Shown here: positions 1 through 31,470 of the stretch, piece by piece
How positions within the stretch are numbered: the stretch's first letter is position 1
Layout: each line of letters opens with the position of its first letter
Assembly: GCA_001986395.2 (NCBI GenBank)
Contig: MQVO02000002.1
Span: 1,798,001-1,862,000 of the forward strand
Length of the DNA stretch: 64,000 nt
Direction of reading: 5' to 3'
Source: Irpex lacteus
Lineage: Eukaryota > Basidiomycota > Agaricomycetes > Polyporales > Irpicaceae
Notes under the pieces: model-generated
Database searches by the model: none
Told to the model about the DNA's origin: nothing
The model's input: the letters and a program-made list of their open reading frames with translations, nothing else
Program-made: the position numbers and the translations under genes

Positions 1-2665
1 GGTCGCGTTTGAGTTTGGATGGAGAAGGAGGGAATTCAGACTTCGGAGTGAAGAACTGATCTGGTTCCTTACCCTTGCTTCGCGAAGTGCTAGGCTCAGG
101 TTTGGGTGTAGGAGGTGTGGAAGGACGAGGGGGAACAGATGGGCGCGGTATCTGTGACGGACGCTCAGCTGCAGATGGAACTGTAGGAGCGGTTGTCGTA
201 GATGGTGCACCAGAAGGAGGCGATGGTTGAGTTGGAGGCACTTGAGGCGTGGTAGTAGCCGGCTCAGATGAGGGCGTATGAAGGGGAATGAAGTCAAAGG
301 AGACTTGAGTGGATGGCGGATTGGTTGTGTTCGAAGATGATGAGGAAGGTGGAACGAGGAAAGGAAAGACCAATTCGTCGAATATAACGTCGATACTCGA
401 GACGATCTTATGGGTATGCCTGTTCCAGAGACGGTAACCTTTAGAACCCGCCTCATACCCAACAAAGACGAGAGACTGAGCATTAGGCTCAAGTTTTCGT
501 CGATGATCCTTGTGGATTTGGCGATAGGCTAGGCAGCCGAAGACGCGGAAGTACGAAACATCCGGCTTCTCGCCTGTGAGAACCTCGATAGATGTCCTCC
601 AGTCCAGAGCCTTTTTAGGGGCACGATTCCGGACGTGGACAGCTGTTTTCACAGCTTCCTCCCAGAATCCATACGACATACCGGCGGCGTGGAGAAGAGA
701 CTTAGCAGCTTCAACGATGGTGCGGTTGTAGCGCTCAGCCTTGCCGTTTTGTTGAGGAGTATCCGGATTCGTGCGCTGGTGAACGATACCAAGAGACTTG
801 AGCTTCGCAATAAAGCTCTTCGACTGGTACTCCCCCCCTCTGTCAGAGCGGAGGACCTTGATGTCGCGGCCATACTGGTTCTTGACCATAGCACGGAACT
901 CGTCGAACTTCGACTCCTGCTCAGACTTGTGGCGTAGGAAGTAGATCCAGAGCGTGTCAGAGAAGTCGTCGATGAACGTGAGCCAGAACTTGTGGCCGCC
1001 GACAACGGAGTCGGCTTGCATGGGACCAGCGAGATCGGTGTGTACGAGGTCGAATGGATGTTCAGCACGTGATGTCGAGGAAGATGGGAATGTTGTGCGA
1101 TGCATTTTGCCCATAACGCAGCCTTCGCATGGGTGAGGCGAGCGTTTCGACTCGTTGAGCTTCAAACCCTTGACCGGAGGATTCTCAGCGCGAAGCTGTT
1201 GAAGAGCCTCCCAGTTCAAGTGTCCAAAACGTTGGTGAGCGAGGTCGATGGGTGCAGAGTCAACATGAGTGGAGGAGGCGACAGAGGGGGCCTGAACAGC
1301 GAGTCCAAACCAGTACTGACCGCCTTTGAGGTGGCCTATGCCTACGGTCCTATTATCCTTGGTGATCCTAGCTCCATTGTCTGAGAAGACGACGGAGAAT
1401 CCCTTTGCGTCGAGGCAAGAAACCGAGATAGTTGGGCAGGCGATACTCGGGCAGTATAAGACGTTGTCAAACTGCACTGTGAGAGCCTTGCCGTCGATCT
1501 GTGTGGTGCCTACAACACGACCAGAGCCGAGTGTCGCCAACGTCGTAGAAGAGTCGGCAAGCTTGGCGATACGAGGCGTGTCGAAAGCCTTGTACTCAGC
1601 GAAGTCGTTGATGTTGTTGGACATGTGTTTTGTGCAGCCAGAGTCAAGCATCCAGGGCGTAGTGCCCGCGTAGAAGAAAACAGTAGCATTGGTGGTCTCA
1701 GACGCGGAGTCTTCGACGGAAACAGCATGTACAGCGGCAGATCCAGTAGACGACGGTGCACCAGACGATTCCTTCCCCTTTCCCTTCCTAGACTGGGCCT
1801 CCACCTTCTGAGCAGCCTTCTTGCGGCACTCACTCTCGACGTGTCCATCGTAGTTGCACCAGTCGCAGTGCTTCCCACTCTTCTTCTTCGAAGCGGACTT
1901 TCGCGCGCGAGGAGCAGCGGTGACTGCGCTGACGGACGCGGAAGAGTCCTTGCGAGAGGCTTCGTCGAGAAGGCGAGAGCGAATGTCGTCGAAGCTGAGA
2001 TCCTTGGGCGCGGTGACGGCTAGGATAGGTTCGACGATGTTGGCGAAGGAGTCGGGGATGACGGAGAGGAGACCGAAGATCTTGAGAAGCTCTTTGCTGT
2101 CGAGGATGCCAGAGTCGTTGACCTCCTTCCACAGACGACCACGTTCTTCAAGTTGCTCAGCGAGAGGGCGCGTGCCGTCGAGAGACGAGAAGAAGTACTG
2201 CTTGAACTTGAGGAACGAAGACAGCGTGGTGGTAGCGGAGTAGTTGGCCTTGAGCTTGGCGAAGACTTCAGCGGCAGAGTCGGTCTCGTGGTTGATGAGA
2301 TGGTGGAGGGAAGGATCGATGGTGGTCAGAAGAATCATGGTGACGGCGGCGTCAGCGCGATACCAGTCGGCCTCGTCAGCATCACCAGCAGCGGGCTTAG
2401 TTAGCGACGGGTTAACGAGGTTTTCAGCGCCCATGGTGCGGAGATACTGGATGAACAGCGTGCTCCACGTCTTCCAAGTCGACGCGCCGGTCAGCTTAGG
2501 GATAGTCTCAGGTTTGACCTGGAGAATGTAACCCGTACCGCTCTTGACGAAAGCGGAAGCTGAGGCGGACGGACCAGCAGATCCAAAGGTGGCGTGAGCG
2601 GCAGCGGAGGGGACGGGGCCCGTCGACGCTGAACCGCCAGCGACAGGAGAGTTCCTGCCAGACAT
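1..2665 (-). CDS. Ty1/copia Gag-Pol polyprotein, 5' half (runs off left edge)
   Basis: One uninterrupted frame of about 888 codons runs from the ATG at 2665 to the left edge with no stop, so the RT and RNase H parts lie outside the window. Domains in order: a Gag region; a CX2CX4HX4C zinc knuckle (CDWCNYDGHVESEC) near residue 266; the aspartic protease motif MLDSGC near 339; a GAG-pre-integrase segment ending HPCEGCVMGKMHR; and an integrase core with HTDLAGP near 541, SDRGGEY near 605 and QNGKAERYN near 640, which supply the D, D and E. A Ser/Pro/Thr-rich linker follows. The order protease-integrase before RT is that of Ty1/copia (Pseudoviridae). The Kozak context and the primer site 120 nt upstream support the start. 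Lack of stops suggests a fairly young insertion. Confidence 0.93.
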   Translation of the reverse strand, partial: MSGRNSPVAGGSASTGPVPSAAAHATFGSAGPSASASAFVKSGTGYILQVKPETIPKLTGASTWKTWSTLFIQYLRTMGAENLVNPSLTKPAAGDADEADWYRADAAVTMILLTTIDPSLHHLINHETDSAAEVFAKLKANYSATTTLSSFLKFKQYFFSSLDGTRPLAEQLEERGRLWKEVNDSGILDSKELLKIFGLLSVIPDSFANIVEPILAVTAPKDLSFDDIRSRLLDEASRKDSSASVSAVTAAPRARKSASKKKSGKHCDWCNYDGHVESECRKKAAQKVEAQSRKGKGKESSGAPSSTGSAAVHAVSVEDSASETTNATVFFYAGTTPWMLDSGCTKHMSNNINDFAEYKAFDTPRIAKLADSSTTLATLGSGRVVGTTQIDGKALTVQFDNVLYCPSIACPTISVSCLDAKGFSVVFSDNGARITKDNRTVGIGHLKGGQYWFGLAVQAPSVASSTHVDSAPIDLAHQRFGHLNWEALQQLRAENPPVKGLKLNESKRSPHPCEGCVMGKMHRTTFPSSSTSRAEHPFDLVHTDLAGPMQADSVVGGHKFWLTFIDDFSDTLWIYFLRHKSEQESKFDEFRAMVKNQYGRDIKVLRSDRGGEYQSKSFIAKLKSLGIVHQRTNPDTPQQNGKAERYNRTIVEAAKSLLHAAGMSYGFWEEAVKTAVHVRNRAPKKALDWRTSIEVLTGEKPDVSYFRVFGCLAYRQIHKDHRRKLEPNAQSLVFVGYEAGSKGYRLWNRHTHKIVSSIDVIFDELVFPFLVPPSSSSSNTTNPPSTQVSFDFIPLHTPSSEPATTTPQVPPTQPSPPSGAPSTTTAPTVPSAAERPSQIPRPSVPPRPSTPPTPKPEPSTSRSKGKEPDQFFTPKSEFPPSPSKLKRD

Positions 2666-11649: not shown

Positions 11650-14600
11650 CTAAAATACACTATGAGAGTCCTGGCGTTTCTGCCGCTTCTTGGGTGAAGG
11701 AGGAAGAATGTCCCGATAAATTATCCCGCGGCCTACGCGAGGTTGTGCCGAAGTTACCTATGGTCGGTGTAACCGGCCTCGAAATTGCACATTCTCGCGT
11801 AGTGGTTTCTGTGTATCCAAGATGTTAGCCAGCAATTTTTGCAATCAAAACATCAGTGCCAACGCATGGATCTGTTTTAGAACTCACCGATTTTCGATAC
11901 ATCGCAAAATCCATCCGAGTTAGGTAGCTGCAAAGCAATCTCAGAAATGACCTCTCTGAATTCCGACATGTGTGAGGCATCCAGCATTACATGCGCCCTT
12001 GAGAGTGGATCCTTGAGGTAAGTGACGATGCCATGGAGCGATGGACGAACTTTCGATATGTCGTGCTCAAGGCGATCTGCCAGCTGAAGTTCAATTGCTC
12101 TGAGGCTATTTATCGACTATAGGATACAATTATCAGTCGATGTTAAGCTTATAATTAGTTCAAAACGTTACCAAGTCAGTGGCATCAGCAGCGTCGGTAG
12201 TAGGTGTTTCTCTCTCACCGGATGTGTCGGGCTCCAATAGGGAATCATCACCGGTGAGCTGTAAGAGCTCTGATGCTCGTGTACCCTCAATTTGTAGCAG
12301 GGAGGTTGACTGGACATGTGCGCGTGGAGGTAGTGCTGCCGACTCGAACGTAGCATCATCTCCGGGTGTAGCAGATGTAGTACGAGGAGACTTCATATGT
12401 GCGGGGAGCTCATCCGAGCTCCGAGTCGATGATTCGATACAAACACTGGCAGCTTGATTGGGTACTTGTGAAACTGTGCCTTGACCAGTACCTGGTTCAA
12501 CGAGCGGAGAGGTTATCTCACGATCGTATAGTTGACCATACCATGCACGATTTCGGATGTTGATCTCGGTAGCTTCTTCCAGACTTGATGCGAAGGAGAA
12601 GGAAGAAGGGAGGAGATGACCGCATTGCATCCACTCTTCGATGAGTAGCCTGAACGCGCGCATGTTCTTACATGCGCCACCACGGTATGTCCAGTGGGGA
12701 CATGTACACGTAGCAGCGCCAGAGGGATGTGCAGTCAGCCAATATGCGAGGGAACTATTCGCCATTGAAGAGCAGCGAGCCCACAGCTCGTATGGGCGCG
12801 AGCTTGGGATTGGCTTTAGTTTTCTCGCTAGAAATAGTATGGTGCGAGCATCGGCATTGCGACGCTGGTCCGCGGAATACCAAGCAAAGGGACTGTGCAC
12901 AGCACAGTGAGTGGATACTGCATGTGTTGCTTGGTCATTCGTACTGGATAGCGATGATGCAGAGAGAATGGGACCAAATCTTCGTAATTTCCAAGCGGCG
13001 TATTGAGTAATCATGCGGCGCTGTGCGTAGATTTGAGGGATTATGCTGGAGATAAGGTGGTAAAGGAGCATGTCGAAGCGTGGTCGGTGTCCGGAATGCT
13101 GCCATTGAGGAACGTACTTGAGCTTTAGGCTCCCATTAAGCGACTCTAGATGATTAGTTGTCGGAGTAACACCTTCCAGGGGGATACCGAGCAGATGCGC
13201 AGCGGTTTCACGTCCATAGCGAGACCATCCTTCCCACATATCTCTAGGCATCCATGTGGATACCAGGTAGTCAAGATACTTCCCAGCCCCCTCCATGTAC
13301 GGCCGAGCCTCACGATCGAGCGTAAGGAATCGGCATTCCTCCCGTGTATGTTCAATAACCTTGAGTGCTCGGTGGTGTTCAGAAGCCTAGCAACATATAT
13401 TCAGTTCATGATTGAAGACCGAAAGCATTATCACTTACGCTTCCTCTAAAGTGAAAAGGCGTTTGCTGAGATGTGTTCGCCATGAGGATTCTCCGCAGGG
13501 AAGGCAGCTCTTCCGCTTATTCGTCCAGCACTGACGAACATGAAACTTACACAGCAAAAGGATGATCTCCGGCCACACTCGCAAAAGAGCTCCGCGCTCC
13601 TTGAAGTCCGTATCCGTGATAGCGACACACGGACAGAAAACTATGCCATCCTTCTTACCCATCCAAGTCTTCCACTCAGCAAGCAGCTCGGTGAGGATAG
13701 ATGTGTCGTATCCAGCATCTGTTGCGCGATTCCCGGTTGGTGCAGAGAAGAGGAACATTGCTACCGGAACACCGTGTCCGGACTCGTCAACACCAAGCGC
13801 AATCCACAGAAGGAGTCTCGACGTGCAGAGGCCGAAGGTGCCGTCTAGAACAAGCTGCTTCTTGTGGCAGTACTTCCACGCTGCCTGCTTCATGTTCGCC
13901 GTAGAGATTGAGACCTTAAGTCATTTGTGTGCGGCAGCCCGGGCGTGATAGTGAAACACGGCATCGTAGATGTGCTTCTTGAATTGTGTACTCTGCGGGT
14001 TGAGCCAATTGTCGACGTTATGTTCGGGCGAAATCTTCACATCGATCTGGTACGCTTTGCGATAATGCTGACGATAAAGGCGGCTGAAATCAGACGGCAG
14101 TATTTGATAGCGATGGTTTATGGTAGAGTCGTCCGCCGTGTGTTGCCCTCGATATGCGAGGTCATTGAGCATGTCGAGATTTGTTCTCTGTATTGTATTG
14201 ATGCTGAGAGTAGTTACGCATTGGTATAGCACTAAGACATAATGAGAAAGCACGTACCCTGCACCATTTCCGAGTTGATGTACAGCTACCTCCGCGACAT
14301 GTTCGTGCAGGAGGACGGCAGGTACTCGAATGAGTTTAGCATCAAGACACGCATCATTATGCTCGAGATAGCCAACCAAACGACATATTGAGGCCGTTCC
14401 GTCGTCGGAGAACTTGTATGTCACATCTGCATGAACAAGGCAGCCGGTATAGTCGTATGCTGCACGCCGAGAACCACTGTTGAGATCCGCAACTTCACCG
14501 GCCCCGTTGTTTCGTTTTCGCTTTCTGCCTGCTCTCGCTTGTGTGTTTTAACCACATACGCTTCGATTTGGTATTTATACGTAAGTACAAAGGATTATAC

Positions 14601-19916: not shown

Positions 19917-20729
19917 AAAACGCGTAGGTAGACGGGTGGTATACCAATGGTAAAATTTGCTTAATATTGCTCATGTATAATCCCTTGTACTTACGTATAA
20001 ATACCAAATCGAAGCGTATGTGGTTACAACACACAAGCGAGAGCAGGCAGAAAGCGAAAACGAAACAACGGGGCCGGTGAAGTTACGGATCTCGACAGTG
20101 GTTCTCGGCGTGCAGCATACAACTATACCGGCTGCCTTGTTCATGCAGATGTGACATACAAGTTCTCCGACGACGGAACGGCCTCAATATGTCGTTTGGT
20201 TGGCTATCTCGAGCATAATGATGCGTGTCTTAATGCTAAACTCATTCGAGTACCTGCCGTCCTCCTGCACGAACATGTCGCGGAGGTAGCTGTACATCAA
20301 CTCGGAAATGGTGCAGGGTACGTGCTTTCTCATTATGTCTTAGTGCTATACCAATGCGTAACTACTCTCAGCATCAATACAATACAGAGAACAAATCTCG
20401 ACATGCTCAATGACCTCGCATATCGAGGGCAACACACGGCGGACGACTCTACCATAAACCATCGCTATCAAATACTGCCGTCTGATTTCAGCCGCCTTTA
20501 TCGTCAGCATTATCGCAAAGCGTACCAGATCGATGTGAAGATTTCGCCCGAACATAACGTCGACAATTGGCTCAACCCGCAGAGTACACAATTCAAGAAG
20601 CACATCTACGATGCCGTGTTTCACTATCACGCCCGGGCTGCCGCACACAAATGACTTAAGGTCTCAATCTCTACGGCGAACATGAAGCAGGCAGCGTGAA
20701 AGTACTGCCACAAGAAGCAGCTCGTTCTA

Positions 20730-21153
20730 CAGTAGTGGTACTTAGGATTGTAATACAATCCTGGACTATTGTCTTATAATGGGTGTGCACTTAGTGGTGG
20801 TGTTGTATTTAATGTAGCAGACTGGGTGGAATTGTAATACTTTGCCTTGGTATTGTATTACAACATCGGTAGGCCGTGTATTTACATATCTGCACTACAA
20901 TAGGCAGTGTAATAACCTTCGGCGTAGTGTAATAACCTCTGGGCATTATACACTAGCCTCTCGGTGGGCAGTGTAATAACACTGGGCCAGTGTATTTGTG
21001 TCTACAGTAGATGCGGGTAGTGTCATAATGTTCCAAGGCATTGTAATTGGTCTCGTGACAGGTGTAATTACAGCCCTATTTAATGTAACACGTGGTCCGT
21101 ACCTTGTAATAACTTGTAAATACCTTATAATAATGCACCGACCGGTTTGATAT
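20730..21153 (+). repeat. Left 424-bp TIR of the large KDZ element
   Basis: Matches the inverse of 31047-31470 except for about three G/A-type transitions (for example CTTGTAATAAC here against CTTATAATAAC, and CCGGTTTG against CCAGTTTG). Short motifs such as TTGTAATAC, GTGTAATAAC and TTGTAATTG recur throughout. From 21154 to 21785 there is no gene; this is the 3' flank of the transposase gene. Confidence 0.9.
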
Positions 21154-21785
21154 TGATTTCGGATCCTTTTGCTATTCCAAATGGATTCAACGCTGGCGCT
21201 ACAAAAAAGCACCCGGATGGCCTGGCATTTTCACGGCTATTGCCGCTGCCTGGCGGTCTTGCAAAACCTTGATTGCACTTACCGTACCTAGCTTACCACG
21301 GCAGCTCCCGCGTTGAGCGCTACTTAGAGTACTCTACCGTATACTTTTACCCTTTATATAAGTGAGCGTAGTCATTTTTGATATACTGCATTGTCTCTGG
21401 AATACTTATAACAAGAGCTATACACACGTTTACATGAGTTATTTGGCCGATATATGAGGGAAATGTTGTTAGACTTAGCGTAATACTTACTTCGGCCAAC
21501 AAGCGCCCATCGTATTGCATGCTTCTCGACATATGCCGGACTGTTAGTAGCACTCATTTAACCACGTATGGTAACAGCATATGATATCATTGGGTCTTCA
21601 TACAGTGCGTGACGTGTTTTGCAGGAATAGCACGAGAGATACAGCTGGCTTTACGAACATTTCCAAATCGGGCAGTCAGCTTTGTGGCGTTCGGCAAGGC
21701 ACGGCATGATCCAAGTCTACGCACGAAGTCCTTCAAAGTACAACGTTTGCTTGATATTATCAATAAGATCTGAACTAAATACAAG

Positions 21786-24700
21786 TTATCCACTACTATC
21801 TGATGCGTTACCGATTTCCATGTCATGCTCGGAATCTGACTCAGGCTCTGAGTCCGCTGGTAGCCTCACGACCCTCTCCACGGGAACCGACGCAGAAGCT
21901 CGCGAAGGGTCTTGTGCTACGCTGAATTGTGAGGCTACCCACTCCGCGTGAAGCTGTCGAACGGTAAAAAAAGGGACCCATAAATTTTGAAACTTGATGG
22001 CGAGCTCCTCATACATAGATGCTTGCTTTTCCGCGTACGCCTTGAGCCCGACACGAAGCGCCGCGGATGTCTTGTCACTATCGCGGCCCTGTTGCCCACG
22101 CCACCACTCAGACTTCCACTTGAAGAAAGCAAGAACACGACGCATTTCTTCTTGTATCAGTTCAACCTCTTCCGCCCATCGTCTGGCCCGAGCGCGCGTC
22201 TTTGTCCACTCAATTTGCAAGGTTTGATCGAAAGCGTCGTCGTCATCGGTTTGCTCGCCGTTTGGCCGTGGAACCCGCCATATCCATGAGAGTTCTCGAC
22301 GACCCTCTCCTAGTGGACGATCCTCGTCGTCGTCATTCCCAGGACCTGAAATATCCTTGTCAGCGAGATGGCGTAACCGAGTCGACCATTGCCCGTTCGG
22401 GTCAAGGGTCAGCAGAGCGGCATGAGCGGCACGGTAACGCTCAGCTGCCACGCCGACCTTGTCTTGGAACTTGGTATACAAGCTCCGTATGCGCGTGTTG
22501 AGCTTCTGACCAGTGCCAGAGACATTGCTGTGCTTGAATTGGGCGATTCCTGCCATGGTACAACGAAGGCGGCGGATGTCAGCGAGAGAATCATCCCCGA
22601 TAGCCACGCGGAGCTGAATCTCCTTTTGAACGAGCGAGGCCATTGGTCGACTGACACGGAGGTGGTCGGGGAGCGCGGACGGGAAGTAGAGTGGGATTTC
22701 TTCCGGATGAGCGCGTGCAGAGGTTCCTGCAGGGTCGATACCATCAATTTGGTATTCAGTGAGCTCGCCTTTGTTGGTGTCATCCTCGTGATCGGCTTCC
22801 TCTCTGCTGGCAGTCCAGGTTGCAAGTAAACCACGCACGCAAGGCATATACACGTCTTGAATCTTCCTCCAGGCGTTGATGCGATGCGCGACGGCATTGC
22901 ACTTTGTTTGCAGCGCAGCCTGATCCGCTGTCGAGAGTTTCGTCTTCGCGCGAATCCGAAGGGTCCGTCTACATGAGATCATTAGTGATGTTCAGATCTC
23001 CATAGCAACTGACTTACTGAGTGTGCTCTAGCTCGAGCCCGATTTGGAGGAACGCCGAGGCCGTCACCTCGTGAGGGGCGGGTGTACCAGATGCCACCTC
23101 AGCGGCTTCTTCATTAGCGAGTTTGAGACGGATGTCAGCGAGCGTAAGGGCTATGCAAACGGGCTTTATGATCAGCAGAGTAGCATACAGGTATGGGATG
23201 ATCTACTTACAGCTTGTCTGCTCGACAAAAGGGTCCGGGTTCTTGTATGGGTCAGCCTCCCACAGCTCGATGGCGGCCTTCCACGTCGTGAGGATGGCAT
23301 GCGGGACTGTTTGGGTGAACTCCTCAAATATTGTTTCTTGCTTGATCTTCATATCCTAGGCTTCTTGTAGACGGCGTAGAAAGAGATCCCCTAGCGGAAT
23401 ATCAATATAGTAGCAAACGGCTAATACTAAATTACTCACCGAATCCGAGCGTCTTGACCCAATTCCAACCACCCCAGTGATCATCTACAACTTCGCGTCG
23501 ACCTGCCGGCGGCATTTCCTTCGTACTCATGGAGACAGAGTTCATATGGGCCCAGCCGGTCTCGACCCCTTCGCCATATGTACGTCCCGAACCAGGCAAG
23601 TAGTTGAGCGAGAAGGGCGAGTGTCCTTTCTCGCCGTGAACCCGCCAATGCTTCTTCGGGATAGCCCACAGCATTGACGCGATGCGTGTCGCATCAAGTT
23701 GCATATGGGGGGGAAAGGCGGCAACGCGTTTGGCAAAATTCTTTGAATACTGACAGGCGATATCGTAGGTGAAGAAGATCGGCACGGTAGTGCCGGTCAA
23801 CGTACCCAGAAGTATGTAGTCCATCGAGCAGTATCTGAATCAAGATTCCCTGATCAGCGATCACATTCATGATTGCGTAGATGTAGATAAAACTTACTTC
23901 TCGCCTTTCTGTAAGTTTGCGAGGCCGTTCCGACGGACGAGGCAGTGCCTATTGCAGAGGCACGCCGCAGTTCCCGATGCTAGATATCCACCATGAGGTA
24001 CGTTGGCGTTTCGAATGGCCTTATGCTCAGCAGAACAAGTATTACTCTGACTATTCATTAGACAGGTCCAAACCTACGACAATGAGTTATACGTACCTCC
24101 TGTTGATCAACCGTCTGATCTACGAACTCCATATACTTCGATTCCTCCACAAAATATGACCAGCCAGACGTCAGCTCAACGTCCTTAAATCCTCGGTCTT
24201 TCAACTTCAAACGAAAGTTGGCGTCGAGCATCAAGTATAATACATACAGCCACCTGTGCCGTTGATAAGTAGAGATGCAAAACGACAACATGTTGAACTT
24301 ACGCGACACTGGCAGGAGCGTTTGCCCAGTCTGTTGGTAGGTTTCGTTCAGGGTGAGGGCATGCCGCGCACTCGACCGTACAAGTGCCCTCGGCCGTGCT
24401 CTCGATACCGTTCGGATCATGGCCACGAGCACTCCTTTTGAGGAGCATCAAATTACGCCACTGTCGCACAACGACGGCCAACTGCTTGTATCGATTCTGC
24501 CAGATCATCAGTAAACATATCAATGAGCTGACCAAAGACGTAAAGGGACGTACTGGTACTGTGCGCGTACCCGTGTTATCAGTGATCCGGCAGAGCGACT
24601 TGTGATAATCGTGGAGACTTGTCTTGCCTTGAAGAGTGAGCTCATGGAAGAACTCGAGGGCACTGAAGGTAAACACTGTGCTCATCCTATGCCGCGAGGC

Positions 24701-25573
24701 GGGGTACCATCCATATCTCATAAGTTGCGCCCACTCCGGGACTACGCCAGCGTCGTCGGGAGTCACGCACGCGCAGAAGACAAGATCAACGACATGAAAT
24801 CCATTGACGTGACCAACCGTAAATTGTTCCTTGTGACGTCCAGCGTGGGGACATTTGGCACCGCCATCTCCCAGATGGAGCTTCAGCCCGAGCTCGCGTA
24901 GGGATGCTCGTTCGAAGAAACCAGTAGTTTTCCACATCTATTAGATAGTCAGCATCAATCAGCTCCGAGTCAGTCATAGCGATCACGTACTTCGATGCGA
25001 TGAAGCCCTTGGACACGATGATCTCTGACCATACAGGCCTTGCATAGCAACCCTCCGCCATCACAATCCTTGCATCGGTACTCTCCCACAGTGTGTTGAC
25101 CGTTCTGAGCACACCTTGTGCAAGGGGGGACAGAGGTCACGCTCCCGCCGTGACCATCGCGTCGAAGTAGCTCGTCCAAGTAAGCCGCACGTAAGGGTAG
25201 CCATTCTTGTATATTATCCTAGTAGATGTTCGTTAACAAATGAGATTGTTTCTGTGAAACGACGTACCACTGCTCGGCGGTACGGGTGTTGCTTTTTCGG
25301 CGGGGGTTCAATCTGCTGTACGGGAATCTCGTCGTCCACTCTCGAAGGCTCACGAGCGTTCTCAGTAACCTCTATAGAAGTAGTGTTCCTGCTGGTAGTG
25401 CGAAGACGACCTTTGGATGTTGTGGCAAGTCGGGACGAGGACACGGTCACTGTCTTGTTCCGGTGTGCGTACTGCTGTTGTATTGCCTGCCCGGAGGGTT
25501 CAATGGCCGATAGCTTGCCACCCCGCTTTTTAGGCCGGCCTCCCTTTGGAGGCTTTGAGCCTCGTGTAGACAT
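21786..25573 (-). CDS. KDZ transposase, ten exons, 1102 codons, one in-frame TAG
   Basis: Exons 25573-25268, 25218-24991, 24937-24554, 24496-24303, 24253-24097, 24046-23898, 23834-23440, 23390-23211, 23150-23018 and 22968-21786 join in frame across nine GT-AG introns. The N-terminus is basic with an AT-hook-like PPKGGRPKKRGGK. A cysteine cluster near residues 138-165 (CTRC...CKDC...CKAC..DH) matches the CxC2-like cluster of the family. The catalytic part shows MLDANFRLKLKDRG near 380, FTYDIACQYSKNF near 495 and GRTYGEGVETGWAHMN near 560, then DDHWGGWNWVKTLGFG. The third part is helical (RRLRCTMAGIAQFKHS) and ends acidic (SDSEHDMEIG). The only defect is TAG at 23358-23356, codon 616, where CAG would fit. 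It may cut the protein after the catalytic part. Confidence 0.9.
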
Positions 25574-26536
25574 GTATATGTAGAGAGAAGATGTTGAGGG
25601 GATTGATCATCATGGCCCTTGGACGAAGTCTATCGCGCGGATTTTATAGCAAGTCGCCTCGTTGTGTCCATGCATACCTGCAAGACAAATTGATGAGACA
25701 GTGGTAAAGATAATCGTAATGAAGTCGAGCTGAGATAGTGCTGAAGGCTGAGGGATTATCAATCATCAATCAGCCTCAGGTGAAAGTGGATGAAAGCAGT
25801 GATCGTAGAGATAAGCCGCGCGCAACCTGTACGAGTACATGGGATCATTTCGATCTTTCCTTTGCTCACCGTGACTCTGTCCTCCTCAGCGCATGGTTCG
25901 AGGTCAAAATTTTCAACGCTGATCTTACGAGACTATGGTTATTGTGCACTTACTGGTGAATGTACTACATTGCGGAAAAGTGTGTGCGGCTGGAACCATC
26001 AATACTGAACGCATGGACGAGTTCGTACACAGTGTGCACATGCGTAACGATAAGTATCTATATGACAAAATTGTATCGTCCTCATGTAATATGTATGCGT
26101 ACGTCTTGATAAAGTGAACTCGTGCAGCACATTATCGATGTGCCATACTCACAGATTTGTATGATACCAGGTTGATGTGATATTCATACACCATGCCTCG
26201 TCGCGCATGCTCATGAATGCAATCTCACATCCGCTTTGTTCGGTAAGGTTGTCTACTGCGTCAGATTGTCATGCACCACTCTCAACGTGATGTGTTCACT
26301 AAGGATACATGCGAAATTGATACATCGTTCAGGCGGTAAGTCGCCAGACTCGATGACTTTTGCACAAGTTCACTATAATAAGTACTGAGTACCAACCGAG
26401 TCAATTGCTCATGCCTCGCGCGGGCAAACATGTCATTCATACAATCACACCTGGGTATTATAGCAGAGCACATATATTTTGCAGGCAGAGGCGGTGATTA
26501 CTACTGTATGCAAGCAACTAAAATCTATCTATATGT
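25574..26536. other. Spacer between transposase and second KDZ gene
   Basis: Holds the upstream region of the minus-strand transposase gene and the 3' flank of the next minus-strand gene. No coding frame is convincing. CTGAAGGCTGAGG near 25741 pairs with CAATCAGCCTCAG near 25768 as a local hairpin. Confidence 0.5.
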
Positions 26537-28031
26537 CTACTCCGAGGTCAGCTGTTCAACCTCATGGTTGGCCAGAGCATCGCGATAGGACTCGAGCGCA
26601 TGCCTCTTCGAGAGCTCCCCATTCTGGTGGTTGTTGGATACTCCCTGCGTAAGGAAGCTCGCGCGATGCCTGACAATGTGTTAGTTACTTGCAGTGAAGA
26701 AGCTTGTAGTGACTTACCAATTCTTGACCACACCAGTCTTCTTGCCACGCGTGACGACGTAGAACGCGGACTTCCCGAAGGAGTGGTCCTCGGGATCCGA
26801 CTCGTAGCCGTATTGTGCCATGAGATCTGATGAAGTGTGTCTTAGTTTCTCGCATCATCATGCAACTCTATAATAATGACGCACATTCTCGATGGAGGGT
26901 GATTTCCTCCCTGGCTGTGAGACCGCTTCGACCCCAATCGGGCTCGGGGTACGGGACACGCCTGGTCCTGTGCGGAGTGTTCGGAGGGGTGTGTGTTCGT
27001 GCAGGCGTAGGCGTCTGAGGTACCGACACGTTTCCAGCACGACGTTGCGGAGTTCTAGGGGACATCAAACCGTTAGCAGGGTTTTGAGACGCACGTCCCT
27101 TTGTTTGAGTAGGCTGTCTAAACAAAGAGGGGCTAGTACAAACAAAAGGGTCGGGAGGGTCGGTGTTTGAAAGAGCAGAATTAATCTCGAAAGGCGTACC
27201 TGCTGTCACGCGCGGCCGGACTCTTTAAAATATCATGTGTGGGAGTCGGCGACACACTACTCTCCCTCATAATGTTTGTGAATACGTTAGGGCCGTCAGG
27301 AAGAGGGGCACGGTAGGCGGTCTCCGCGTAACTGAGGGACTGAGCATCGGGCATAGTACGGGAGCTACGCGTTGGTGTCACCGGCTCTTCGCGGCGTGGT
27401 TTATAGTCCGCTGTCATTGTGTAAGAATGATGTGTTGACGTAAAGAAAATAAGTAGTGCTTACGCGATTCAGGGGAAGAGTCGGAAACGACAACAGGGGT
27501 TTCGCTGACAACAACGACAGGGCGACCTGCCTTACGAGTCGTCACACGGACACCATGGGATAGGTGGGTGTCCAGAATGAACCGCGAGGCGTCGATGGTC
27601 AAATTCGCACGGACATACCCGCCCAATCGAATGACGGTGTTCCCATCCTCTGAATGAGAAATCAGTACAGCTCCGAAGGAGCAAGTAGTAAGCTCACCAG
27701 ATTCAGAATCCCCTTCTACGCCGTGCTCTGCATAGTCACGGTGGCCGTGCGTGTGCTCGGGGCTCGGGGCTTCATTGTATTGGGGTACTTGACAGCGTCG
27801 AGAGGTAGCAGCTTGACGAGGTGTAGCACGGTTCGGAGTGCACGGAGTGTCTGTGTAACGAGGAGTGCTGGCACGGTGGGCCTCACGTTGTCCAGCACGA
27901 TTCTCGGTATGGCGAGATTCACTGGCAGCACGCCCTCCACTACCTCCTTGTGGGCGGGGTATGCGACTTGACTGAGAGTGAGCTGGACGGTGGTCGTCCT
28001 GGGAGGGCGATACAGGGTGATGCTCCGTCAT
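26537..28031 (-). CDS. KDZ-element protein with C-terminal RNase H1-N/viroplasmin-type domain, 401 aa
   Basis: Exons 28031-27698, 27649-27464, 27410-27200, 27117-26885, 26826-26718 and 26669-26537 join in frame (402 codons with stop). The N-terminal 110 residues are disordered (His, Pro, Arg, Ser rich). Exon 2 holds a beta-rich piece (VIRLGGYVRANLTIDASRF). The middle is Thr/Pro rich with several TP and SP sites (PQTPTPARTHTPPNTPHRTR). The C-terminus reads KSAFYVVTRGKKTGVVKNW, then GVSNNHQNG and HALESYRDALANHE. This is the pattern YVV-G-GI-W...G...F-T-eA--Y of the RNase H1 N-terminal, hybrid- or dsRNA-binding domain (Pfam Cauli_VI). No RNase H catalytic domain follows. The gene faces away from the 28172 gene with only 140 bp between their starts, so they may share a promoter. 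Role in transposition or silencing is speculation. Confidence 0.8.
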
Positions 28032-28171
28032 GGTGGTGGTAACGGTTAAGCAGACAGAGCAGGGGTGTCAGAGTTTTTGAACGGCCCGTTTGTTTGTTCA
28101 GACCAACTAAAACAGAGGGTGAGCCGCTCGCACCTACCCTCCCACGCAAGCAACGTGGCAGTGAATACCCC

Positions 28172-30547
28172 ATGACTCGCAAAACTTGGACGACGCCTGA
28201 GCAGCGAGTGTCGCTACAGTCCCACAATGCTGCCTTCCTGGCGGCTCGCACAGGCGGGACTCTTGTTACTTGGTACCCGAAAATATACCAAGCATGGTTT
28301 GATGCGTATCCAGAGCCCGAGCCCTTGCCGGCTGACATCGCGGAGGAAGGAGGAGACGCTATCGCCGCTGCAAAGAAGCTGAGAAGCAGCAGAGAAGGAG
28401 TAAGTAGTCATCACGGGACAAATCTGACAGATGGCTGACCTGACATTTTAGCAAGTGAAATGGTGGTACATCAACACCAACCGTGTAGCTCGTGGGGGGG
28501 CCGGTCAGAAGAAGGTCCTACCCCTGGGAAAGAAGACACGCACAATGCACGCCAGTCAAGCGTACATCAAGTTACATAAGGAGAAAGTAATGCCACAAAT
28601 CGAGGCTGAGTGGGCAGAGGTCAGTAAGGATTACACCGACGAAGAAAAGAAAAAAAAGCTCGCCTTCACTATGAGGCGTGCTGCCGAGCTGTACGAAGAG
28701 GAGGAGGAAGACGTGCAAAAGGAAGTACAGGTCTTTCGAGACAGCAAGGGCAAAGCGCGCGAAGGTTCAGGGGAAGAGTCGCCGGAAGTAAAGGAGCTAA
28801 GAGAAAGGCAGCAGTGAGTTAGAGACCTATTCCGTATGATGTGGTACTTACATTTCCTTAAAGGGCTATCGACTCCATTCCGCATACCCTCGAAGTATGC
28901 TTGCAAGATCTTGAAAAGCTTACCGGCTGGATCGGCAGTATTATTGTCGGTGGTCCCGATCCTCGCACTGGTCATTTCAACTGCTACACGTGAGTAACTG
29001 GCATGTCATGAGAATATTGTCACTCACCTAGCCTCCAGATACCACGTAGGAAAAACCATGAACACCGGTTATAACTTCGACGAGGCCTACGAGACTTGGG
29101 GCGCAGCGGAAACCAAGTTCAAGGAGTTCCTTCCTAAGTGCTACGGTATGTGGATTGAATTTGGATATTACCGACAAGGCTAACGTCTCTGTAGAGACAG
29201 GAGTTGTAAAGGAATTGCATACTCTGTACAGTACGACAATAAGCCGTCAGCCTACTCCGCAGAACGAAAGTCGCAGTACCTCACCAGTGGCGGCAGCTCA
29301 TGACGGCAGTCCCAATGTTTCCGAGCCTGCCAATGATACCCAAACAGTGCCGGACATCGAGGCGGAGCGGGAACGCCAAATGGCAGAGAATCGGCGGACA
29401 TTTCAAGCTCTTGAGTTGAACCAGGGCCCCGTGCCATCTTCAAGCAATTGTCCAAAGCCTAGGGCACGCAAGCCGAAATCGAGGGCCACCGCGGAGCCTC
29501 CAAAGTCGGATCGCAGAACGAGAGCAACGTGAGTACATCCTATCATATCCAACTATCAGATTTACTAACGCCTTTTATAGAAGTGAACAAGAGAGGAACG
29601 TACTCGGCCAAGGCGCAGAGCTCGATACTGCCGCCAGTACGGCTGCGCCTCCGCCAACACCCTCTGCCTCCTCAACAACACAGCCTACCATGCCCGATCC
29701 AGGGCACGCTCGTGCTCCGACACCTGCATCCCAGCCTCCAGAAACTCCCGCTACCGCAGAGAAGCCAGCTGCTGACGAAGAGCAGCAGCCAGCCGCTGAA
29801 GAAGAGCAGTCAGCCACTAACGCAGAGCAACAGCAGCCTGGCCCCACCATTGAGCAGCCTGCTGGCATCGTGGAGCACCAGTCATCCGCAACTGCAGCTG
29901 CAGCATCTACCGGGCCTTCTCGTCAGTCGTCGTCCCCCGCACCTAGCACGTTATCGGCATCAGCACAACAGTCTCAAGAACCTTCGGGTGACCTACCACC
30001 TTGGTGGAAAGACGCGCTGGCTTACCTTCAGACGGTCCCGGGTCAGGGTGAGTGGCAAAACGTGTGCGATCTTTGGATCGCACATGAGACTCGACAGGGC
30101 TTCCCGGACGGCAATGCGCCAAATCGAGTATCGACAGACAACAGGCCGAGCGAAGTAAAGGCCTGGATACAAAGACACCGCAAGTACGACAAGCCACCCT
30201 CAGATATGGATGCGAAAGAGTTTGGGGGGAGATGGAAAGCGTGGTGGGAGACGTTGCAGCCTGCATGGCGTAAGATATCGTGGCCACCAGCTCAGCCCGT
30301 CGAGTTATTGGGCGGCGATTGGGAGACGTTGGACAAAGGGGGCTGCAATGGGTTCTTCACCATTATCTTGACGTTGGTGTGGTGGTTTGGGGCGATTCAG
30401 GGTGCCGGTGAGGATATGGATGAGTGGAAGATGGCGGTGGCGGATGTAGCGTGGGTGCTGGGCGCGATGGGTAAGTCATCGGGTAAGCGCTCTTCTCCCG
30501 ACGGCGCGGCCATTTCGGCCTCCCCCAACAAGCGACGAAAACTCTGA
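28172..30547 (+). CDS. KDZ-element protein of unknown function, six exons, 707 aa
   Basis: Exons 28172-28399, 28452-28813, 28864-28989, 29039-29145, 29195-29528 and 29581-30547 join in frame (708 codons with stop). The N-terminus (KTWTTPEQRVSLQSHNAAFL, WYPKIYQAWFDAYP) and exon 2 (WYINTNRVARGG, HASQAYIKLHKEKVMPQ, Glu-rich helix) match a family of large uncharacterised Agaricomycete proteins I remember as common in repeat-rich genomes. I know no biochemical function. Exon 3 has CLQDLEKLTGWIGSIIVGGP. Residues about 230-470 are disordered (Pro, Gln, Ala, Glu). The C-terminal part is Trp-rich (LPPWWKDALAYL, RWKAWWETLQPAWRKISWPP, VWWFGAIQGAG) and ends with SPNKRRKL, a likely nuclear signal. The start at 28172 is chosen because it fits the conserved beginning; the frame is also open upstream to 28094. 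Confidence 0.82.
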
Positions 30548-31046
30548 ACGTTTGGGTACCTGCTCGTCCAATGTCCTTACTCGAATATTGTATCGCTGCT
30601 AATTGGTAATTCTGAGATTTCGTATTCCCTAATATTGCATATTTTTATAGCGTACATTACTTCCCAAGACACCGTCTTTTATTGTAAATATTCTTTATTT
30701 CAACCATGTACATATTGGTATACCTGTCTATAATCTCTAATTGCAGAGCTGCTCATTGGTATTGTGAACGTAACCCGTGGGAAATATTGCTGGCCACAGT
30801 ACAAGCGCCAATGCCACCACGGAGCTGCGACTGATTTGGAAACTGTAATCAAGAATAAAAGCGCCTGAAGAATAGCCTGCTGGACACATCACGGCAACGG
30901 CCGCTTCACGTGTCTACGCGCTTTTCCAGTAGAGCTTTCTGGCTATGACGTCATTTTTGTAGGGATTCCTGCACATGAGGTGAACCCGACTTGAATGACG
31001 TCATCTCCATTCTTGCCTTAAGCGCCGTTGGTTGTGCGCTTCGCCT
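30548..31046. other. 3' flank inside the KDZ element
   Basis: AT-rich after the stop of the 707-aa gene, with AATATTGTA, ATTTTTATAG and TTGTAAATATTC stretches fitting a polyadenylation region. Nothing coding. Confidence 0.5.
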
Positions 31047-31470
31047 ATATCAAACTGGTCGGTGCATTATTATAAGGTATTTACAAGTTATTATAAGGTA
31101 CGGACCACGTGTTATATTAAATAGGGCTGTAATTACACCTGTCACGAGACCAATTACAATGCCTTGGAACATTATGACACTGCCCGCATCTACTGTAGAC
31201 ACAAATACACTGGCCCAGTGTTATTACACTGCCCACCGAGAGGCTAGTGTATAATGCCCAGAGGTTATTACACTACGCCGAAGGTTATTACACTGCCTAT
31301 TGTAGTGCAGATATGTAAATACACGGCCTACCGATGTTGTAATACAATACCAAGGCAAAGTATTACAATTCCACCCAGTCTGCTACATTAAATACAACAC
31401 CACCACTAAGTGCACACCCATTATAAGACAATAGTCCAGGATTGTATTACAATCCTAAGTACCACTACTG
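31047..31470 (-). repeat. Right 424-bp TIR of the large KDZ element
   Basis: Inverse of 20730-21153, ending AAGTACCACTACTG at 31470. The few differences from the left arm are transitions. Confidence 0.9.

Follow-up and report, generated by a model that had tools for sequence, protein, structure and literature searches.

We analyzed a KDZ transposon in a 64,000-nucleotide stretch of the genome of the basidiomycete Irpex lacteus (contig MQVO02000002.1, positions 1,798,001 to 1,862,000). This whole stretch is referred to as the window, and its features are given in its own numbering. The element occupies positions 20730-31470 (10,741 bp) and contains three genes, here called T, B, and A, between terminal inverted repeats (TIRs). 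The left TIR (20730..21153, plus strand) starts with CAGTAGTGG and holds an array of TGTAATA motifs, and the right TIR (31047..31470, minus strand; also 424 bp) shows four mismatches to it. Because both TIRs start with CAGTAGTGG, the element has CA..TG termini, a trait of the Kyakuja lineage. Gene T (21786..25573, minus strand) encodes a KDZ transposase in ten predicted exons, and the nine GT-AG introns of this model were picked by eye. The protein matches the Pfam families KDZ (PF18758; 192.5 bits, cut-off 26.6) and CxC2 (PF18803; 110.5 bits, cut-off 27), so that the two marks of the KDZ superfamily, the KDZ domain and a CxC cysteine cluster, are both present. Genes B (26537..28031, minus strand; 401 aa) and A (28172..30547, plus strand; 707 aa), each with six predicted exons, are arranged divergently, with an intergenic region of 140 bp (28032..28171) between the two gene starts. 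An initial annotation of the window had described the 424-bp TIRs, the ten-exon transposase, and two genes 140 bp apart, all of which we could confirm. It had also noted that no dioxygenase motif is evident; in agreement with this, A, B, and T gave no TET/JBP match, and none of the places from a genome-wide Tet_JBP search falls within the element. A single in-frame TAG in T (codon 616 of 1102; 23358-23356, minus strand) had been overlooked. The corresponding gene of a related element on C37, described below, is open at this position. The window copy probably makes a truncated transposase, and with this stop its contribution would be limited to A and B at best, unless T is supplied in trans.

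We searched the 44.3-Mb genome for further copies of the TIR end, using a 30-base pattern with up to three mismatches. Two elements, that of the window and a second one, account for four of the five matches, one at each terminus, and the fifth is a solo end. The second element (C37:435963-450432; 14.47 kb) agrees with the window element in the order and orientation of T, B, and A, and it has a perfect 7-bp target-site duplication (TSD), ATGCCCT, on either side. Its termini match those of the window element over 44 bp at 84%. The first 60 bases are identical at both of its ends, and the long, repeat-rich inner arms are 69% alike. The KDZ segments of the two elements are 78% identical. The A gene on C37 encodes an open frame of ∼750 aa with 38% identity to window A over 755 columns, with five introns at homologous places, where they were deliberately sought. 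A frame that has stayed open while the sequence diverged this far suggests that the A protein is under selection. The solo end (C187:1016755-1016784; 47 bp at 79%) has no partner end and no A, B, or T in the surrounding 3 kb. Nowhere in the genome did we find the window TIRs around a transposase only, a possibility that the initial annotation had raised against its own proposal. As a separate feature of the C37 element, a 1-kb imperfect palindrome (C37:442691-443753; 69%) lies between T and B.

The order A(-) B(+) T(+) was found at six distinct loci, namely the window, C37, C6 (two identical copies), C18, C147, and C314. TIR arms were sought at the loci other than C314 and are present on both sides at four of the six (window, C37, C18, and C147). 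The C18 element has TIRs of 498 bp (97%) with CAGGT ends, and the TIRs of the C147 element are at least 448 bp long (95%). For the left 900-bp segment of C6, no inverted partner was found. The C6 locus was read except for ∼1.3 kb separating B from T, and the end of A at C314 is known from a search match alone. An hhalign alignment of the A N-termini from C147 and C6 with those of the window group extends over 247 columns (E 5e-10). On C6, the 900-bp segments 148151-149050 and 173000-173899 are identical and have identical KDZ and A matches. This repeat, at an offset of 24.8 kb, places the C6 element in a tandem duplication or marks it as an assembly duplicate.

Searches with the C-terminal domain of A yielded 13 A-like loci, which is a lower bound, and 49 KDZ matches were grouped by us into 25 KDZ places. 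Nine of the 13 A-like loci (eight of 12, with the two identical copies on C6 taken as one) have a KDZ place no more than 10 kb away, and such neighborhoods make up 1.1% of the genome (binomial P 1.5e-15). Two loci were counted as having A nearby and not as A-B-T loci: at C141 an A-like 3' end adjoins T in a different layout, and at C32 an A-like match, known from the search only, lies 8 kb from KDZ. Away from KDZ, we found four A-like loci. The C213 locus holds a broken copy next to a frame of Copia-like appearance (judged by eye), and the one on C180 is an interrupted C141-type copy. The remaining two are convergent A-like C-terminal domains in open frames (C173:248.9-250.2k), with the closest KDZ match 28-30 kb away; one is a near-copy of the C141-type A, the other a second A-like end beside it.

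The initial annotation had suggested that A and B are element-encoded accessory factors that act on DNA, RNA, or silencing. The first part of this proposal, that the pair is encoded by the element and was neither captured nor consists of host genes, is strongly supported by the six loci and the TIR arms at four of them. For the mode of action, the proposal comes down to domain resemblance. At the level of sequence, the comparisons establish that the A/B pair is carried between TIRs and has been inherited with T through deep divergence, and in this sense A/B is a real, recurrent accessory module of KDZ transposons.

From its N-terminus to its C-terminus, A comprises a homeodomain-like region, a helical middle part, a TGW..GGPxP domain, a low-complexity linker, and a Trp-rich domain. 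No Pfam family matched A at cut-off. The protein database contained five relatives, from Irpex rosettiformis, Cytidiella melzeri, Ganoderma sinense, Mycena crocata, and Arthromyces matolae. Four blocks are conserved across the relatives: the helical N-terminal block with a WFxN-like motif, the helical middle, TGW..GGPxP, and the Trp-rich C-terminal block. When a profile of the N-terminal block was compared with the PDB, 24 of the 34 matches were proteins named homeobox, homeotic, or homeodomain, in register through the recognition helix. The profile of the helical middle had no match in the PDB. We regard a homeodomain-like nature of A as a weak lead.

The initial annotation had recognized in B a domain resembling the N-terminal, hybrid-binding domain of RNase H1. 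This domain lies at the C-terminus of B; the evidence for it is fair, yet window B alone is marginal. Two relatives of B exceed the cut-off of the corresponding family PF01693 (Cauli_VI; 21 bits), a fragment from C37 with 30.9 bits and P0007 with 23.2 bits. Cauli_VI is also the sole Pfam match within the 401 aa at E <= 0.1. B and its relatives thus have a domain like the RNase H1 hybrid-binding domain (PF01693; 3BSU), and B differs from RNase H1 in that no RNase H catalytic domain was found in it. A search of the protein database with B returned three relatives, all of them Irpex lacteus proteins and one 90% identical in the alignment. Searching the genome itself with B gave matches at the window and C37 only, and the five genomic matches to PF01693 include none at the A-B-T loci. 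Because both searches missed them, the B-like genes of C6, C18, C147, and C314 were located by eye beside A, and that of C18 was recognized by eye only. The window/C37-type B has one hybrid-binding-like domain; in the B-like genes of C147, C314, and C6, these domains are split by an intron, and C147 and C6 have two each. A profile of the C147/C314/C6 domains had the N-domain of human RNase H1 (3BSU) as its top match in the PDB (E 1.6e-4), and the two types of B domains align with each other at E 1.6e-7. B is a nuclease-less protein that probably binds hybrids or double-stranded RNA (dsRNA). The stretch VVVVSxxPVxVxDSSPE is also conserved in B and, as we presume, resembles a SUMO-interaction motif. 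Independently of these genes, two tandem PF01693 (RNase H1-N) matches lie away from KDZ at C37:962592-963807; they are perhaps host RNase H1-like genes.

The TIRs themselves contain repeated short motifs. In the window element, seven of the 14 TGTAATA sites are in the left TIR and six in the right one; the 9,893-bp interior has just one. The seven copies in the left TIR compare with at most five copies of the commonest heptamer in each of 200 shuffles. The left TIR of the C37 element contains a 1.5-kb array with a unit of ∼21 bp that includes TTGTAGT (z 14.5 at lag 21 and 20.6 at lag 43). The tetramer TAAT occurs 16 times in the window TIR (shuffled mean 7.3, maximum 15). As a homeodomain site it was not used as evidence, since among the four elements compared it is enriched in this TIR only.

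We then related the presence of A to the phylogeny of the transposases. The tree included 19 of the 25 KDZ places, consisted of rows from this genome only, and contained no named Kyakuja references; one identical C6 copy, C58:2631k, C58:567k, C212, C213, and the weak C255 were left out. One clade has an A-like gene within 10 kb in eight of its 13 rows, the other in none of its six (Fisher P 0.018, an optimistic value because the rows are related). For the six rows, the upstream sequence was inspected in two cases (no A found), and the rest were judged by the A searches. Only one place in the genome exceeds the Tet_JBP cut-off. It is a TET/JBP gene in a KDZ element at C18:926.9k (C18:925200-934400, 1619-2191, minus strand; 44 bits), whose transposase (C18:924k) has an unsure place in the tree on a very long branch. 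No A was found in the 9.2 kb at this element. Four weaker Tet_JBP matches stay below the cut-off, with 24.5-27.3 bits (C37:802358, C140:29736, C315:896890, and C307:87745), and none of the five Tet_JBP places lies within 10 kb of any of the 13 A-like loci. TET and A therefore look like alternative cargo.

The reading that we favor, with a probability of roughly 0.45, is that of a Kyakuja-type KDZ cut-and-paste family whose mobile unit consists of T and the divergent accessory pair, with A reading the motifs of the TIRs and B binding hybrids or dsRNA. A role of A in TIR binding is proposed because a motif array in the ends coincides with a probable DNA-binding protein encoded by the same element. 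A would recognize the short motif array of the TIRs, which is TGTAATA in the window family and TTGTAGT with a period of ∼21 bp on C37. In En/Spm, TnpA is a DNA-binding or regulating accessory protein that the element encodes beside its transposase. Like this protein, the Harbinger Myb-like protein, and the VANDAL regulators, A might help synapsis or keep the element expressed. For B, the targets at the element could be RNA:DNA hybrids or dsRNA, and their binding could support the role of A or blunt RNA-based silencing.

A number of results weigh against this reading. For A, the best E value of the N-terminal profile against the PDB was 0.08 and thus under significance, and the Pfam family Homeodomain matched one of seven A members (E 0.034). 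The AlphaFold model of the Trp-rich C-terminus of window A is of low confidence (mean predicted local distance difference test score, pLDDT, 49.3). A model of the relatives (P0003 of Irpex rosettiformis and four others) reached a mean pLDDT of 45.4, and two fold searches with it returned nothing usable, a result from which the absence of a fold does not follow. For B, the window protein scores 20.2 bits against PF01693 as a whole and 23.7 bits with its last 81 residues, around the cut-off of 21. Of five B-like pieces from C147, C314, and C6, four had no Pfam match and one had a Cauli_VI match below cut-off. With respect to the ends, the 21-bp period is of borderline strength in the window TIR, where its z of 3.8 only ties with the highest value among 300 shuffles. 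The TIRs of C18 and C147 lack the period, and no heptamer clearly stands out in them either. The TIR array is therefore not universal, and TAAT is not enriched in the TIRs of C37, C18, or C147. A TSD is present in one of the three elements with both ends located (C37), and none was found for the window and C18 elements. Finally, no A was found near five of the 13 Kyakuja-type rows, four of which were judged by the A searches alone and one of which lies 4 kb from a contig end.

These five rows, which include the TET element, also bear on the next reading, that A and B are needed for transposition itself, through end binding, nuclear import, or synapsis, and have no role in silencing. The concentration of motif arrays in the TIRs of two elements and the co-inheritance of A with one transposase clade (eight of 13 versus none of six rows) would fit such a function, but with five rows of the same clade lacking a nearby A, this type of transposase does not strictly need it. 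We consider this reading doubtful, if a serious competitor. Somewhat less probable still is that A/B forms an anti-silencing module, in which B sequesters dsRNA or hybrids of the element and A directs B or chromatin factors to the TIRs, similar to the presumed role of TET/JBP in other KDZ elements of fungi. It would agree with the retention of a hybrid-binding-like domain in B without a nuclease domain, and with a sole above-threshold Tet_JBP place that adjoins a KDZ transposase and has no A in 9.2 kb. But one TET element allows no statistics, and the uncertain position of its transposase makes the comparison weaker. The most far-reaching version of this idea, which we consider unlikely, is that TET/JBP is replaced in a KDZ lineage of mushroom-forming fungi by a two-protein anti-silencing system, made up of a TIR-reading, homeodomain-like A and a nuclease-less B that intercepts dsRNA or R-loops of the element. 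Large fungal elements do carry cargo, and the two open A-like frames on C173 suggest that life outside elements is possible, but host genes caught by chance in one large element are a very improbable explanation and were set aside, because six loci have the pair in fixed order, with TIR arms at four of them, and the four A-like loci off KDZ are broken, interrupted, or C141-type copies plus an A-like end.

The flanks of the window element deserve a separate comment. No TSD was found around it, a point that the initial annotation had missed; the outer flanks are CGTTCTA (left) and GAGGTGC (right). Since the TSD is missing despite near-identical TIRs, one flank was perhaps rearranged after insertion. 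Frames at 20001-20654 (plus strand), adjoining the element, and at 12160-13296 (minus strand) have a transposon-type look and presumably resemble MULE-like proteins. A Pfam scan of the first frame gave no match.

For Agaricomycetes, Kyakuja elements that carry TET have been described, with CA..TG termini and TSDs of 7 bp (Kojima 2025, PMC12730594). According to the available sections of that paper, TET-carrying Kyakuja/Zisupton elements resemble ours in their KDZ transposase, CA..TG ends, 7-bp TSD (as in the C37 copy), and an extra gene accompanying the transposase; the window element differs in that it has no TET/JBP gene and instead the divergent A/B pair. The same sections state that two Laccaria Kyakuja families have no TIRs, in contrast to the long TIRs found here. 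They also mention a Harbinger/Nuwa Myb-like protein and a MuDR VANDAL regulator, which likewise combine a transposase with a DNA-binding or regulating accessory protein. We saw no sequence relation between such two-protein transposons and A/B, and here there are two accessory genes, one of them hybrid-binding-like. The Cryptococcus elements KDZ1-KDZ3 are similarly built, with 9-11 kb, TIRs of 139-241 bp, and TSDs of 4-8 bp (PMC12810828), and therefore element size and TIRs are not new. They differ in having CxC1 instead of CxC2 and shorter TIRs, and A/B genes are not named in the portion of that paper available to us. In the literature searched, we found no description of the A/B pair; the 2014 PNAS paper defining KDZ may mention it.

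The A-like proteins of Agaricomycetes, which are now unannotated, may be transposon factors instead of host genes. In the part of the literature available, TET/JBP is the accessory enzyme described for fungal KDZ elements, and A/B would be a second, unrelated module. Since A and B stand in fixed order between TIRs and a TET-carrying KDZ element is present in the same genome, Irpex lacteus may allow two solutions of one transposon class to be compared.

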